From the IMG/VR virus record IMGVR_UViG_3300027659_002888, positions 1-21,341 of that record: a stretch of DNA of 21,341 nt, one strand, 5' to 3'. A program made the translations under genes and the position numbers. The DNA is from a virus. A model generated the notes under the pieces. The model was not told the origin of the DNA. It made no database searches and saw only the letters and a list, made by a program, of their open reading frames with translations. Positions 9,503-21,255 of this stretch are shown here, piece by piece (positions within the stretch are counted from its first letter, which is position 1; each line of letters begins with the position of its first letter).

Positions 9503-9537
9503 ACCCCTGGTAAATACGTTATATACTTACAAGGGGT
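9503..9537 (+). promoter_or_regulatory. late-promoter-like motif within an RBS-masking hairpin
   Basis: ACCCCT (9503-9508) pairs with AGGGGT (9532-9537). Inside, after a 1x1 mismatch, GTAA (9510-9513) pairs with TTAC (9527-9530), then a further TA/TA. The Shine-Dalgarno AAGGGG (9531-9536) of the gene at 9543 is in the 3' arm. GGTAAATA (9509-9516) is in the 5' arm. A start near 9522 would drop the 5' arm and leave the ribosome-binding site single-stranded. Confidence 0.55.
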
Positions 9538-9542
9538 ATAAT

Positions 9543-9848
9543 ATGAAAAAACTTTTAACTGTTCTTTTACTAACTGTCAGTGCTACAGCATTTGCTCAAC
9601 ATAATCATGGTTGGAGACATCATGGTCATCGTCCGCATGGTCCTAGCTTCGGCTATTGGCTAGCGCCTGTAGTTATTGGCGGAGTAGTTGGCGCGGCCAT
9701 TGCTAATAATAATCGTCGTGAAACTGTTGTCATAGAACAACAGCCTATTGTTGTACAACCATTACAACAGAATTGTACAGCATGGAAAGAAGTACACACC
9801 TCAGAAGGCAATACTTACAGAGAGAGAACTTGTTATGGCTTACAGTGA
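9543..9848 (+). CDS. His-rich exported protein of unknown function
   Basis: The ATG at 9543, six bases after AAGGGG, gives 101 residues; a longer in-frame ORF from 9378 only extends through the previous gene in another frame. A classic signal peptide is visible (MKKLLTVLLLTVSATAFAQ, cleavage likely after AFA). The mature N terminus is a His cluster with nine His within 18 residues (HNHGWRHHGHRPHG) that could bind metal. A Gly/Ala/Val hydrophobic stretch (VVIGGVVGAAIANN) follows, then a tail with two cysteines (NCTAWKEVH... ERTCYGLQ) that could form a disulphide. Export to periplasm or outer membrane is likely. It overlaps iscU by 14 bases, so the two are probably co-translated. Confidence 0.75.
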   Translation: MKKLLTVLLLTVSATAFAQHNHGWRHHGHRPHGPSFGYWLAPVVIGGVVGAAIANNNRRETVVIEQQPIVVQPLQQNCTAWKEVHTSEGNTYRERTCYGLQ

Positions 9849-10845: not shown

Positions 10846-10874
10846 TTGACTATCAAGTAATTAGACTGTATAAT
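10846..10874 (+). promoter_or_regulatory. sigma70-like promoter
   Basis: TTGACT (10846-10851), a 17-base spacer and TATAAT (10869-10874) followed by AAG. It abuts the TAG stop of the preceding gene. A start near 10881 leaves a leader of about 23 bases before the ATG at 10904. Confidence 0.8.
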
Positions 10875-14084: not shown

Positions 14085-14307
14085 TCATATCAAAGGAACA
14101 GTAATTGTTCTAAAAGAAGGCGAAGACGTTAATCGTGCTCTACGCCGCTTCAAAAATAAAATTGAAGATTTGGGCACACTTAAAACTCTTCAATCAAAAG
14201 AGTTTTATGAGAAACCAACTACTGAACGCAAACGTAAAAAAGGTGCAGCCAAGGCTCGTTGGCGAAAACAGTTAGAAAAAGAGTCATTACCTAAAAAAAT
14301 GTATTGA
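14074..14307 (+). CDS. rpsU: ribosomal protein bS21
   Basis: The ATG at 14074, seven bases after AGAGGAAA, gives 77 residues; in-frame ATGs at 14050 and 14053 lack this spacing. The sequence is a clear bS21: VIVLKEGEDVNRALRRFKNK, then EFYEKPTTERKRKKGAAKAR (43-62), ending PKKMY, in line with bacterial S21 ending in RLY-type residues. bS21 sits on the 30S platform near the anti-Shine-Dalgarno end of 16S rRNA and affects initiation. A phage copy could replace host bS21 and bias ribosomes to phage mRNA. It is translationally coupled to the upstream gene. Its TGA lies inside the -35 box of the next promoter. Confidence 0.93.
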   Translation: MRNNHIKGTVIVLKEGEDVNRALRRFKNKIEDLGTLKTLQSKEFYEKPTTERKRKKGAAKARWRKQLEKESLPKKMY

Positions 14308-14332
14308 CCTAATAGTCTGTATATGTTATAAT
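14304..14332 (+). promoter_or_regulatory. sigma70-like promoter
   Basis: TTGACC (14304-14309), a 17-base spacer and TATAAT (14327-14332) followed by AAG. The bS21 stop TGA (14305-14307) is inside the -35 box. A start near 14339 leaves about 19 bases before the exonuclease ATG. Confidence 0.8.
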
Positions 14333-15228: not shown

Positions 15229-15310
15229 GATAAATAATTATGTACTAAAACGCCGTAAGGGTTTAGTATAGGACATGGTGTCCACAAAATCTTGCTTAAT
15301 TAAGGAGAAA
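15229..15310 (+). promoter_or_regulatory. dnaK leader: late-like promoter, two hairpins, shared RBS block
   Basis: GATAAATA (15229-15236) is 7 of 8 to the late consensus. The predicted start near 15242 is at the foot of a 9-bp stem (15241-15249 with 15262-15270, one G-U pair). A second hairpin GGACA-TGG-TGTCC lies at 15271-15283. A 21-base block at 15290-15310 contains TCTTGC, a palindromic CTTAATTAAG and the AAGGAG site, and matches the hsp20 leader at 20 of 21 bases. Confidence 0.6.
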
Positions 15311-15314
15311 CATT

Positions 15315-17186: not shown

Positions 17187-17199
17187 CACAGACACAGGT

Positions 17200-17261
17200 T
17201 ATAAATAATTGTAGGGTGCTCGGGTGAGGCCCTACTTGATTCTTGCTTAATAAAGGAGAAA
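17200..17261 (+). promoter_or_regulatory. hsp20 leader: late-consensus promoter, hairpin, shared RBS block
   Basis: TATAAATA (17200-17207) is a perfect T4-type late motif. The predicted start near 17213 lies at a hairpin GTAGGG (17211-17216) / CCCTAC (17230-17235), extended by a G-U pair. The block at 17241-17261 with TCTTGCTTAAT and AAAGGAG matches the dnaK leader at 20 of 21 bases, and both end four bases before the ATG. Confidence 0.65.
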
Positions 17262-17265
17262 TTTT

Positions 17266-17718
17266 ATGAATAGCACAGTAACACGTTTTGATACGAATAG
17301 TCTAGCTCAACTTAATAGAGCCCTTGTTGGTTTTGACCGAATGTTCGATGGGTTTGAAACTCGTTTTGCAAATCAGTTATCAACTAACTACCCTCCACAC
17401 AACATTGTAAAGACTGGAGAGAACACCTACTCAATTGAAATCGCAGTAGCTGGATTTAAAAAATCAGAGATTGCAGTGGAAGTTGAACAGGAGATTCTAA
17501 CAGTTCGTGGAGCATGCGAAACTCCAAACGAGTCAACTACTCGTCAATATTTACACAGAGGTCTAAGCAGTCGTGATTTTGAAAGGTCATGGCAACTTGC
17601 CGAACACATGGTTGTTAAGAATGCTGAGATAAAAGACGGTGTACTTAGCATTACTCTAGAATACATTATCCCTGAAGAAAAGAAAGCCAGGGTTATTGAC
17701 ATTGTAGAGGTTAAGTAA
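17266..17718 (+). CDS. small heat-shock protein (alpha-crystallin / IbpA type)
   Basis: The 150-residue protein has an N-terminal arm with GFDRMFDGFETRF, an alpha-crystallin domain from about residue 42 (PPHNIVKTGENTYSIEIAVA, GFKKSEIAVEVEQEILTVRG) and the end strand (IKDGVLSITLEYIIPEE). The order is typical of IbpA-like proteins, and Hsp20 is one of the most widespread accessory genes in T4-like marine phages. It would hold unfolded proteins for refolding, here possibly passing them to the phage DnaK just upstream. AAAGGAG precedes the ATG. Its end overlaps the promoter for clpS. Confidence 0.93.
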   Translation: MNSTVTRFDTNSLAQLNRALVGFDRMFDGFETRFANQLSTNYPPHNIVKTGENTYSIEIAVAGFKKSEIAVEVEQEILTVRGACETPNESTTRQYLHRGLSSRDFERSWQLAEHMVVKNAEIKDGVLSITLEYIIPEEKKARVIDIVEVK

Positions 17719-17724
17719 TATAAT
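17696..17724 (+). promoter_or_regulatory. consensus sigma70-like promoter for clpS-HO-pcyX
   Basis: TTGACA (17696-17701), a 17-base spacer and TATAAT (17719-17724) followed by AAG: both hexamers match the E. coli consensus exactly. It overlaps the end of hsp20, whose TAA directly precedes the -10 box. Confidence 0.85.
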
Positions 17725-17770: not shown

Positions 17771-18073
17771 ATGAGCGCAACAGACGTAAAACTTGACGAA
17801 AAAATTAAATTAAAAGTCGAAGAGCCACATCGCTGGAAGGTTATCTTATTAAATGATGATCATACTCCAATGGATTTTGTTATTGGTATTTTAACAGAAA
17901 TCTTTAAGCATAGCCAAGAAACTGCCAAGGCAATTACAATTCAGATACATACTGAGGGCAGTGGAATTGCCGGCGTGTATAGTTTTGAAATTGCAGAAGT
18001 CAAAGCAGTTGAAGCAACTAACCTAGCTCGAGGAAATGGATTCCCACTCCAAATTAAAATGGAAGAAGAATGA
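17771..18073 (+). CDS. clpS: ClpS N-degron adaptor
   Basis: The ATG at 17771, six bases after GGAG, is preferred over 17759, which precedes that site. The 100-residue protein has the ClpS core: WKVILLNDDHTPMDFVIGIL with N28, D29, T32 and M34, and H60 in IQIHTEGSGIAGVYS; these align with the N-degron pocket of E. coli ClpS (N34, D35, T38, M40, H66). ClpS delivers proteins with bulky N-terminal residues to ClpAP. The N-terminal extension needed to engage ClpA is present but short (about 20 residues). A phage copy could redirect ClpAP. Its TGA overlaps the heme oxygenase ATG (ATGA), so the two are translationally coupled. Confidence 0.93.
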   Translation: MSATDVKLDEKIKLKVEEPHRWKVILLNDDHTPMDFVIGILTEIFKHSQETAKAITIQIHTEGSGIAGVYSFEIAEVKAVEATNLARGNGFPLQIKMEEE

Positions 18074-18615
18074 GCTTAAGAGAAATTACCAAAGACCTTC
18101 ATCATGAGGCAGAAACAACCAAATTTGCTAAAATGTTACTTGGTGGCAAAATTGAAAAACAAGATTACAAAAATTACCTGTATAACTTGTTAGCAATTTA
18201 TGATCCTATTGAATGGTATTGCAAGCGTCAAGGATTTCTTGATACAATGCCAGACCTTCCCCGTCTGAAGAGTATATATGCAGATTTTCTAGAACTAGAT
18301 GATGGGACATATTGTTACCTAACTCCTGCAACGTTAGAATACCAAGCATACCTACATGCATTAGGCAATGATGCAGAAAACAAACATTTAATTAAAGCTC
18401 ATTTATACTGCCGCCATATGGGTGATTTATTTGGTGGACAGATTATTAAGAAACAAGTAGCACACATTAGCAGTGGCAAGTTTTATGATTTTGAAAATGC
18501 CGATGCAATGAAAGGGGCTATTCGTGCAACACTTACTGATGATCTTGGTGATGAAGCTAAAATAGCGTTTGAATTTGCTATTGCTATGATGAGAGATCTG
18601 TATAATGGCGAGTAA
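18070..18615 (+). CDS. heme oxygenase
   Basis: The 181-residue all-alpha protein has DLHHEAETTKFAKMLL with the proximal heme ligand (H11, aligned to His25 of human HO-1) and RHMGDLFGGQIIKK (115-128), the distal helix signature G-D-L-x-G-G-Q. It cleaves heme to biliverdin IX-alpha, CO and Fe2+ using ferredoxin or another reductant. The product is the substrate of the enzyme encoded by the next gene, which overlaps by 11 bases. Heme oxygenase genes are known in cyanophages and in other oceanic phages next to pcyX. The Phe in GDLFGGQ replaces the usual Ser. Confidence 0.93.
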   Translation: MSLREITKDLHHEAETTKFAKMLLGGKIEKQDYKNYLYNLLAIYDPIEWYCKRQGFLDTMPDLPRLKSIYADFLELDDGTYCYLTPATLEYQAYLHALGNDAENKHLIKAHLYCRHMGDLFGGQIIKKQVAHISSGKFYDFENADAMKGAIRATLTDDLGDEAKIAFEFAIAMMRDLYNGE

Positions 18616-19288
18616 TGTTTGGGACACCCTAATTAACATTCAAGGCCTGCTAGAGAAAAAATTCAATGAAACAGGAACAGAGGTCTTTGAAGCGGGCATG
18701 GATCGCTTTAATCAGCCTGGTTGGGTTAATCGTGTTTGGACCAGTAACAGTTATCGTAGGGCTCACGTTGATGTTGTGGATGCTAGACAAACCAAAGGAC
18801 TCTGGATGATGCACTGCTGTGTGTTCCCCCATACAACAAACCCTGCTCCTATATTTGGATTTGACGTAATAGCAGGTAAAAACAAGATTACAGGTTGTTT
18901 CATTGATTATAGCCCAACATACGATAAGTTTCACCCTATGATTGATTACTTTGGCGAAGAAGTTGGTCAGTATGAATGGAACAAAAAGCGTAAGTTACCA
19001 GACTGGGCTGAGCGTATCTTTAGCCAACACATGATAGCTGCGGGCAATGTAAGCGACGAAACCGAGTTAGAACAGATCAGTTCATTGGCTAGTATATTGG
19101 TAAATCATTACTTAGAAACTGTGGGAGAAACACACGATTCTGTCATAGATACTACGTCTTACCAAAACTTCTACTGCGATAATCAAAAGCAAAACCCCCA
19201 TACTCCTAAGGTTATGGTCAGTTTAGGGCTCAGTGAAGATGATGTTCGCCATTTTATTCAGGAATGCCTGTTCCCGGAAATACGCTAA
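18605..19288 (+). CDS. pcyX: ferredoxin-dependent bilin reductase, PcyX-like
   Basis: The 227-residue protein has the FDBR fold signature: GLWMMHCCVFPH with H70, PIFGFDVIAGKNKITG with D87 (H-to-D spacing as for PcyA H88 and D105), and YCDNQKQNPHTPKVMVSLGL (190-209) near the C terminus. The PcyA catalytic Glu (E76) region has aspartates here (VDVVDAR, D56 and D59), in line with the Glu-to-Asp change described for phage PcyX, which makes phycoerythrobilin from biliverdin. PcyA or PebS-like activity cannot be excluded from sequence. It follows heme oxygenase directly, as in reported oceanic phage gene pairs. Ferredoxin must come from the host. The stop is part of a CTAAATAT motif. Confidence 0.85.
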   Translation: MASNVWDTLINIQGLLEKKFNETGTEVFEAGMDRFNQPGWVNRVWTSNSYRRAHVDVVDARQTKGLWMMHCCVFPHTTNPAPIFGFDVIAGKNKITGCFIDYSPTYDKFHPMIDYFGEEVGQYEWNKKRKLPDWAERIFSQHMIAAGNVSDETELEQISSLASILVNHYLETVGETHDSVIDTTSYQNFYCDNQKQNPHTPKVMVSLGLSEDDVRHFIQECLFPEIR

Positions 19289-19298: not shown

Positions 19299-20990
19299 AT
19301 GAGATACAGTGAATTTAAATCAGTCCTATTAGAGTTTGCCCCACCTACAGGTAAGAGTGCAAATGACTTACAACTTTTAATTAACATTATAGAGATGGTT
19401 CCTTCTGAGGATCCAGTGCATTCTGTAGCTAAAAGTATACTCCAAGGCTTACTAAGAGATGTAGTAGAGCCATCGCAACAGGCTACACAGAAACCTGCAC
19501 CACAACCTGCTACCCCGCAATCAACAGCACAGCCTGCACCACAACCTGCTACCCCACAATCTGAAGAAGAGCCGTTAGCCGAAGAAGTACAGCCAGGTGA
19601 TGAAAGTTGGTACGAAGCGGCTCTCGAGGCAATAAAAGATCCTACAATAGCAGCACGAATGTTGAATAAACTAAGAACGGATCCTGAGTATCGCGAAGAG
19701 ATGCGATATGTGCATAAAAACGGTGAGAAAAAAATTAAAGCCGCTTTTACAGCAGGTGGGACAGAAGCACTAGTAACAGTAGATCAATTCTTTAAACAAG
19801 TTAAAGAATCAGCAGACTTACTTGCTGGTAAGGCAGTAGGAGTATTAGATGACTTGCGCACGTGGTATCGAGACGAAGCAATAAGACAAAAGGTACCAAA
19901 TCAACCCTTGCCTGCGCCGAGACCGAAAGTAACAACAAATGCACTGTATCAAAAACTATTATACCCATTAGAAAATATTTTCCAAGATTTAGGATTTAAA
20001 GATCAGCCTCCTAACTTAAGAAACTTTAAGAAAGAAAGTCCTAAAATTTTAAACTTTATGAAACAATGCGAAGAAGGCATCATTGAGTTTACAGATTTGC
20101 TTGAAGTGTCTGAAGGTAATATTGCATTACTAATTAACGATCCGGACTTAGCCTACATATATGAAAAAATATTTGATAAGTTATTAGCATTAGATGCAGG
20201 TCAAGGAGGTGGTGCCTGGGGCCCTGGAGAACTTGGACTATCTATTCTTTGCAAACCTGTTTCAAAATCTAGAGGCAAAGGAGATTTAAGTAGTGTCTCC
20301 GCCGACGGCAGTCCAGTCGATGTTGAAGTTAAAGCTAGTCGAAATGCTAACAGTGGCGGCCGCTTAGGTGGTAGTGGTGTGCTTGCAGGATCAGCTGGCA
20401 AGAAAACATTTATCCCTGCACTAAAAGCACTATGTGAAACAGCAGGAGTTGATCCTAACAGTATTGGTAAAAACTACAGCGAAGTTGTTAAGTATAAGAC
20501 TGTTAAGGGTGTAAAAACTAAAGTAGGCACTGGTGAGAAGAAAGAAACCGGATCTGTTAAACCTACAAGCATGACAAGTCCTAAATGGTTTGATAGTTTT
20601 AATGCACAAGTACCGCCGGGCCTACAAGGCAAGCGTGGTGTAAATCCACAAGGTGCTGTGGCAGAATTCTTAATCACTGCCGTAGGTGCAGTTGTTTCAG
20701 AAAAAGGCAGACCGTTTTTTGACGAAGAGATGATTGCAAGCATTCCAAATGAAGATGGTACTATTGACTACGAAAAGTTTAAAACAATTCTAACAGCAGC
20801 ATGGTATCAAATTTACAGTCAAACTGACAACGTTGGCATTATCTTAGTTCTTAACCCAACTAACGGCAACTATACAGTTATTAACTCAGGTGACATGCTT
20901 ACATCTGGTGCCAGCAGTGTAGTTATTACAGGCGGCATTGACTTTGATGATAGCCAAGGTAAAGCTGGTCCACAGGTTGGTATTGCTTAA
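19299..20990 (+). CDS. large phage protein with possible PD-(D/E)XK-like domain, probably virion or DNA-linked
   Basis: The 563-residue protein starts MRYSEFKSVLLEFAPP, a start seen on many marine phage proteins. Residues 60-95 are a Pro/Gln/Ala-rich linker with two copies of a 13-residue repeat (PAPQPATPQS), then a helical region. Residues 305-360 hold GAWGPGELGLSIL with E311, KGDLSSV with D329, and VDVEVKASR with E343 and K345. This spacing E-(17)-D-(13)-E-x-K fits PD-(D/E)XK nucleases. Downstream sequence is Gly/Ser-rich and beta-like and ends GKAGPQVGIA. I do not recognise the whole protein. Structural roles are possible; the nuclease reading is motif-level inference. Confidence 0.7.
   Translation: MRYSEFKSVLLEFAPPTGKSANDLQLLINIIEMVPSEDPVHSVAKSILQGLLRDVVEPSQQATQKPAPQPATPQSTAQPAPQPATPQSEEEPLAEEVQPGDESWYEAALEAIKDPTIAARMLNKLRTDPEYREEMRYVHKNGEKKIKAAFTAGGTEALVTVDQFFKQVKESADLLAGKAVGVLDDLRTWYRDEAIRQKVPNQPLPAPRPKVTTNALYQKLLYPLENIFQDLGFKDQPPNLRNFKKESPKILNFMKQCEEGIIEFTDLLEVSEGNIALLINDPDLAYIYEKIFDKLLALDAGQGGGAWGPGELGLSILCKPVSKSRGKGDLSSVSADGSPVDVEVKASRNANSGGRLGGSGVLAGSAGKKTFIPALKALCETAGVDPNSIGKNYSEVVKYKTVKGVKTKVGTGEKKETGSVKPTSMTSPKWFDSFNAQVPPGLQGKRGVNPQGAVAEFLITAVGAVVSEKGRPFFDEEMIASIPNEDGTIDYEKFKTILTAAWYQIYSQTDNVGIILVLNPTNGNYTVINSGDMLTSGASSVVITGGIDFDDSQGKAGPQVGIA
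19494..19561 (+). repeat. in-frame tandem repeat in the Pro-rich linker
   Basis: A 29-base segment starting CCTGCACCACAACCTG at 19494 recurs at 19533 with one change, a 39-base period encoding 13 residues. It lies in the linker of the large protein, where copy number may vary by slippage or recombination. Confidence 0.8.
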
Positions 20991-21002
20991 TTAATAGCTG
21001 TA

Positions 21003-21051
21003 GATAAATCATCTCCCTAGAGTTGTAAATAATTTGCAACAACAGGGAGAT
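21003..21051 (+). promoter_or_regulatory. long RBS-masking hairpin with late-like promoter inside
   Basis: Outer stem ATCTCCCT (21011-21018) / AGGGAGAT (21044-21051), perfect 8 bp. A symmetric 3x3 internal loop follows, then an inner 8-bp stem GTTGTAAA (21022-21029) / TTTGCAAC (21033-21040) with one G-U pair and a 3-base loop. The Shine-Dalgarno AGGGAG is wholly in the outer stem. TGTAAATA (21024-21031), 7 of 8 to the late consensus, lies in the inner 5' arm; a start near 21037 would omit both 5' arms. A weaker GATAAATC is at 21003-21010. Confidence 0.65.
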
Positions 21052-21056
21052 TTCTT

Positions 21057-21194
21057 ATGAGTTGGTTCAAACATAAGCCTAGACTTAAAATACCCCCAAA
21101 GCAACATGCACATCACTCTAGCCCTATTGCAGAGAAGATGCTGAAAGAAGCTAAGGCTCGAGTTCAAACACCCAAACCTAAGAACGATCGATAG
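21057..21194 (+). CDS. 45-residue basic phage protein of unknown function
   Basis: The ATG at 21057 follows AGGGAG at seven-base spacing. The product starts MSWFKHKPRLKIPPKQHAHH and continues SSPIAEKMLKEAKARVQTP, ending KPKNDR. It is strongly basic with a Pro/His-rich front and one helix (IAEKMLKEAKARV). Small proteins with a P-P-K, H-H, S-P, K-M-L-x-E-A-K pattern appear in T4-like marine phages, function unknown. The coding call is supported by the ribosome-binding site, the elaborate leader structure and isolated placement. Confidence 0.65.
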   Translation: MSWFKHKPRLKIPPKQHAHHSSPIAEKMLKEAKARVQTPKPKNDR

Positions 21195-21239
21195 GTGTTA
21201 AAAAATTTACACCTATTGGGTGTTAAAAAATTTACACCT
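21193..21239 (+). repeat. two tandem near-palindromic repeats
   Basis: GGTGTTAAAA-AATTTACACC occurs at 21194-21213 and again, identical, at 21219-21238 (25-base period). Each copy can form a hairpin (GGTGT/ACACC plus AAA/TTT with a bulged T). The first overlaps the stop of the 45-codon gene. Possible roles are a protein-binding pair, an origin-like iteron or a transcript-end structure; there is no U-tract for a standard terminator. Confidence 0.75.
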
Positions 21240-21255
21240 AACAAAAAAATAACAT

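Follow-up and report, generated by a model that had tools for sequence, protein, structure and literature searches.

A conserved hairpin with an internal late-promoter-like motif covers the Shine-Dalgarno sequence of a small gene in a T4-like phage

Results

The locus and its genes

The window analysed here is a 21,341-nucleotide stretch of viral DNA (IMG/VR record IMGVR_UViG_3300027659_002888, positions 1 to 21,341). Near its right-hand end, a 45-codon gene follows a longer co-directional gene, and the short gap between them contains a hairpin. The features discussed below are as follows.

17696-17724, plus strand: perfect sigma-70-type promoter, TTGACA-17-TATAAT (12/12 match), immediately ahead of clpS and 3.3 kb away from the hairpin on its upstream side
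19299-20990, plus strand: upstream co-directional gene (563 amino acids), whose read-through RNA would hold the whole hairpin
21011-21018, plus strand: 5' arm of the outer stem, ATCTCCCT, complementary to the Shine-Dalgarno (SD) region (folding)
21022-21029, plus strand: 5' arm of the inner stem, GTTGTAAA (folding)
21024-21031, plus strand: late-promoter-like element TGTAAATA, core TAAATA at 21026-21031 (motif counts, placement)
21030-21032, plus strand: terminal loop, TAA (folding)
21033-21040, plus strand: 3' arm of the inner stem, TTTGCAAC (folding)
21037, plus strand: predicted late transcription start (from T4 late-promoter geometry)
21044-21051, plus strand: 3' arm of the outer stem, AGGGAGAT, including the SD AGGGAG at 21044-21049 (reading, folding)
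21057-21194, plus strand: 45-codon gene, MSWFKHKPRLKIPPKQHAHHSSPIAEKMLKEAKARVQTPKPKNDR (open reading frame; N-terminus MSWFKHKP conserved across phages)

The first eight codons of the small gene encode the same MSWFKHKP peptide in dozens of phages, with silent variation only; the search pattern admitted silent changes only, and an independent protein search gave the same result. Compared with the nearest divergent relative (G005), the gene carries 4, 5 and 18 substitutions at codon positions 1, 2 and 3, a pattern indicating that it is translated. Pfam and PHROG searches gave no match for either the 45- or the 563-amino-acid protein, and a DNA search of phage records returned dnaK-level similarity only.

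The surroundings of the gene vary. In four loci (L042, L044, L049 and L051) it lies directly behind a csgG (curli secretion) gene, and in G005 the genes that come after it encode an Asn-rich repeat protein and a collagen-like one. In the window (21192-21240) it is followed by GGTGTTAAAAAATTTACACCTA twice in tandem, and in G005 by a single copy. Further upstream in the window, heme oxygenase and ferredoxin-dependent bilin reductase genes, a phage bilin-synthesis pair, adjoin at 18070-19288 in a block with dnaK, hsp20 and clpS.

A two-storey hairpin pairs the SD

Direct reading and folding of the window DNA placed two stacked 8-bp stems around AGGGAG, as the initial annotation had claimed. The outer stem consists of 8/8 perfect pairs between ATCTCCCT and AGGGAGAT, and the inner stem (GTTGTAAA/TTTGCAAC) of eight pairs including one G-U; the two are separated by two unpaired stretches of 3 nt each. 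AGGGAG stands 7 nt before the ATG at 21057. The late-like motif had also been located correctly in the inner 5' arm, although TGTAAATA additionally takes in two loop bases. The minimum free energy of 20980-21080 was -25.3 kcal/mol, against a mean of -15.6 for shuffled sequences (z -3.64), and 0/200 shuffles folded as well. Rfam covariance models gave 0 matches to the window at gathering score.

Pairing is conserved among homologous leaders

The hairpin was compared with the leaders of homologous genes. In a relative whose neighbouring gene is 77% identical at the nucleotide level, the 41-nt hairpin differs at one unpaired base (97.6% identity), compared with 77% identity for the flanking gene and 70% for the downstream gap. 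More distant leaders have changed on both sides of the helix. In L039, changes in both arms have turned the internal loop into three pairs (-14 to -16), so that the helix spans 20 bp; in L076, the outer stem is kept and the inner stem extended. The outer stem of L056 (AATTCCTCCTATT/GATAGGAGGAATT) is largely new. Relative to the window, and counting from the ATG, it shows compensatory pairs at -10 (C-G to T-A), -9 (T-A to C-G) and -6 (A-T to T-A); its SD is AGGAGG instead of AGGGAG, and the pairing partner has changed too. The hairpin is real and conserved.

The gene order of L056 is that of the window (dnaK, hsp20, clpS, heme oxygenase, bilin reductase, then the upstream gene), and its upstream gene has no match to that of the window. 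In L056/L086 and L076 the gene upstream is from a different family, and the hairpin is still present. It is therefore the small gene, and not its upstream neighbour, that the hairpin accompanies.

Comparing homologous leaders for compensation had been suggested at the outset, with uncompensated loss of pairing in orthologues named as a result that would speak against the proposal. Pairing was kept in five leader types, with the three compensatory changes of L056, and the orthologues retain the hairpin; 14 more distant homologous leader types lack it. Among leaders with the late motif, the five hairpin types all stand behind a co-directional gene (5/5). Nine of the 14 non-hairpin types have a divergent upstream gene, so that no read-through would reach them, and five are co-directional (L063, L080, L081, L089 and L103); that these five do without the hairpin counts against the switch. 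This split fits a role against read-through, but falls short of proof because the leader types share ancestry.

Energetics of SD opening

ViennaRNA was used to calculate how much free energy it takes to open the SD. For the window, the cost came to about 10.6 kcal/mol when RNA reads through and to about 4.9 kcal/mol when it starts at 21037; the late-start RNA remains partly closed by weak pairing with CCCCC in the coding region. Without the outer 5' arm, the predicted cost was about 5 kcal/mol, compared with about 12 when the arm is present. The SD would therefore be released in RNA beginning anywhere past about 21019. For the five distinct hairpin leader types, the values were 10.5-15.6 kcal/mol in read-through RNA and 2.7-4.0 kcal/mol in late-start RNA. 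The 14 homologous types without the hairpin required 0.4-3.9 kcal/mol in read-through RNA.

C-rich stretches pair with any SD, and the complementarity might be the chance meeting of such a stretch with a G-rich SD. The duplex between the pre-start sequence and the SD region was better than shuffles of the same bases for all five hairpin types (p 0.001-0.013); for the window alone, against shuffles preserving its C-rich composition, p was just 0.013-0.046. Given the compensatory changes and the five distinct structured leader types, with L039, L056 and L076 all pointing the other way, we consider coincidence hardly credible.

SD sequestration was also tested over late leaders in general, and no overall trend emerged: 4/30 reached p<=0.05, two of them orthologues. 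In these genomes the device is thus confined to particular genes.

The late-promoter-like motif and a putative late sigma factor

With three copies against 1.9 expected, TGTAAATA is not a rare sequence in the window. Its core is distinguished by position: 10/14 plus-strand copies of TAAATA in the window are intergenic and directly before genes, with about 900 intergenic nt in 21 kb. In the 114,735-bp G005, 33/95 copies precede a gene start on the same strand by no more than 90 nt; the other 14 rearrangements of these letters gave 6-19 copies at such sites, all fewer than TAAATA, and the runner-up arrangements can overlap the same extended motif. TAAATA is present in all small-gene leaders compared, which were selected for it. 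A gp55-type late sigma gene was found in five jumbo records sharing the small gene (PHROG 'sigma factor for late transcription', E 1.5e-75 and 1e-72), where it adjoins an SbcD-like subunit gene; none was found in the fragments of near relatives or in the window's own 21-kb fragment. The concentration of TAAATA in short pre-gene gaps, together with the late sigma of the larger relatives, indicates that it is a real late-promoter motif in these phages.

In T4 late promoters, 5 nt separate TAAATA from +1. The same geometry puts the predicted +1 at 21037, downstream of both 5' arms (21011-21029), so that the predicted late RNA would lack them. The proposal that RNA begun near 21037 would be without the arms therefore agrees with the sequence geometry, the start itself being a prediction.

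The inner dyad GTTGTAAATAATTTGCAAC is a near-palindrome centred on this promoter, and might be a DNA operator for a dimeric repressor, with the outer stem incidental; autorepression at its own late promoter is known for I-TevI (PMC2988022). An operator would leave unexplained the outer stem, which covers the SD and covaries. Moreover, the dyad has a T.G mismatch in DNA that is a G-U pair in RNA, and the inner 5' arm of L056 differs (GCAGATT) with pairing kept. We judge this reading very unlikely. Relatives of the inner motif TAAATAWTTTGCAA were also sought outside the small gene, and those obtained (L112-L122 and others) look like unrelated chance sites.

A possible source of read-through RNA

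The 17696-17724 promoter could supply the read-through RNA: the terminator scan of the window listed no plus-strand terminator-like site on the way from it to the hairpin. Counting sites of the sigma-70 type that match at 11/12 or more positions, the coding strand has seven and the other strand zero, with 0.6 expected per strand; such sites may be used early. In both L086 and L076 a perfect 12/12 site likewise lies about 3.3 kb upstream. In G005, as read by eye, the nearest perfect early-type promoter is separated from the hairpin by a terminator-like stem with a T-run. Strong TTGAC(A/C/T)-17-TATAAT sites occur on the coding strand only, at 338-366, 10846-10874, 14304-14332 and 17696-17724; the first overlaps a late motif at 352.

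The upstream 19299 gene has its own late motif at 19286, so read-through may be partly late, and the benefit would then be insulation and not timing. Late motifs also precede dnaK (15231) and hsp20 (17202), and all local transcription might be late, the structure merely freeing the small gene from its upstream neighbour. Against this stand the perfect host-type promoter before clpS, kept in relatives, and the lack of listed terminator-like sites between it and the hairpin. We think a purely insulating hairpin unlikely.

Alternatively, the hairpin might act mainly as a terminator of upstream RNA with a built-in late promoter, gating being by termination. After the stem comes TTCTTATG, with T at 5 of 8 positions, and a terminator placed before a late promoter gives equal late-only logic. 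However, the 3' arm is exactly the SD, and in L056 the stem extends into the T stretch, leaving CTTATG. Terminators at other sites in these genomes have runs of at least six T, such as GCAGGCTTTTTT before G005 69485. The hairpin is also absent from the terminator-like scan list, though the loop rule of the scan would exclude it anyway. Termination as the main function appears improbable.

Similar leaders elsewhere

IMG/VR was scanned with the pattern CTCCTT-N2..14-TATAAATA-N5..22-AAGGAG, which gave at least 120 matches; a control pattern with a rearranged motif gave 67 in all. The control motif TAATAAAT overlapped ATAAATA, and copies without the following A form the clean control. Among the matches listed, AAGGAG is the SD of an open reading frame in 90/111 distinct late-motif sites, and 62 of those 90 are left after removal of divergent pairs in which CTCCTT is the SD of the other gene. 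In the clean control, the figure is 4/19. Among the matches listed, the helices exceed the six demanded pairs by 3.5 on average. Downstream genes among the matches listed (L162-L281) encode a neck protein, tail tube and hub lysozyme, and HNH/GIY-YIG-like reading frames were recognised by eye. Since the count of matches is a lower bound and the scan includes related sequences, these numbers are a lead and not a measured frequency; they suggest that, in T4-like viruses, many late genes have a leader of this design.

Several other leaders were noted. A second leader of like design in the window (9503-9545: ACCCCT..GGTAAATACGTTATATACTTAC..AGGGGT) precedes a small secreted-protein-like reading frame (ATG 9543). 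It is near-identical in 30 loci, with proteins 50-100% alike, and L226, an apparent homologue, has a hairpin of different sequence (CTCCTTTGT/ACAAAGGAG); it is the weaker case because its predicted SD opening is small (1.9). At 1059-1088, a late motif overlaps a short SD hairpin (AATATC/GATATT) of a pectate-lyase-like tail gene, and the orthologous leader (G005 64447, in L023) has a perfect 8-bp version, AAATATCC/GGATATTT. Divergent gene pairs in L163, L177, L203, L213 and L216 share a palindromic TATTTATAAATA between both SDs; these sites are apparent bidirectional late promoters, with two SDs in one inverted repeat. Finally, the dnaK and hsp20 leaders (15229-15314 and 17187-17265) both have, besides a late motif and a hairpin, the element CTTGCTTAAT(T)AAGGAGAAA; this may be a shared RNA element of chaperone leaders.

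Discussion

In T4, gene e is reported to be repressed about 100-fold, and soc and gene 49 are listed among the leaders whose SD/AUG is sequestered in RNA helices (PMC3014915). For I-TevI, I-TevII, I-TevIII, segB and Aeh1 mobE, upstream transcripts form a ribosome-binding-site hairpin, and initiation from a late promoter within the leader relieves its effect (PMC2988022). The initial annotation had drawn parallels to e, soc and I-TevI. Those to e and I-TevI agree with this literature. T4 e, our positive control, carries a hairpin over its SD, with the late promoter TATAAATA lying in or ahead of the 5' arm, and its computed SD opening falls from 14.3 kcal/mol in read-through RNA to 4.2 in late RNA, much like that of the window leader. 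The parallel to soc did not hold by the same measure (1.9 vs 1.4, little sequestration): the predicted fold has the SD in a loop and the start codon in a stem, so the measure misses some leaders listed in the review.

The window leader also differs from these systems. Compared with T4 e, the gene is different, with no sign of a lysozyme since it lacks a family match; there are two stacked stems and not one, the motif is TGTAAATA and not TATAAATA, and the phage is not an isolate. The genes of the second group are homing endonucleases, three of them in introns, whereas the window gene is small and free-standing, with no homing-endonuclease match. At the level of sequence, the window leader nevertheless has the decidable features of a T4 e-type switch: a paired SD, a suitably placed putative promoter and compensated pairing.

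These results are best explained by a translational switch like that of T4 gene e, off early and on late, and we hold this view with considerable confidence. The switch had been proposed in the initial annotation, and gains support from the conserved pairing, the compensatory changes and the fall in predicted opening cost from 10.6 to 4.9 kcal/mol. Upstream transcripts from host-type promoters such as 17696-17724, running through the 19299 gene, would carry both 5' arms. In this read-through RNA the two-storey hairpin would form and deny 30S subunits access to AGGGAG. Once replication had begun, host RNA polymerase with a gp55-type late sigma would start from TGTAAATA at about 21037. The late RNA, with a 20-nt leader and neither 5' arm, would have AGGGAG largely free and be translated. 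The start site, the temporal classes and the repression are predicted, and we infer that there is a reason for making the 45-amino-acid protein only late.

How widely the device is used is the question that deserves further work. We lean towards the view that it is a general late-control layer of T4-like viruses, arising repeatedly, with differing sequences, wherever upstream RNA reads through. If so, promoter-containing SD hairpins would recur before neck, tail-tube, baseplate-hub, endonuclease and small accessory genes. The simple rule of an anti-SD, a late promoter and an SD predicts many further switches from DNA alone, and marks proteins that the phage apparently avoids making early. The window leader shows, in uncultured T4-like phages and for a gene without link to lysis or homing, that selection preserves, pair by pair, the hairpin behind this probable T4-style delay of a late protein.
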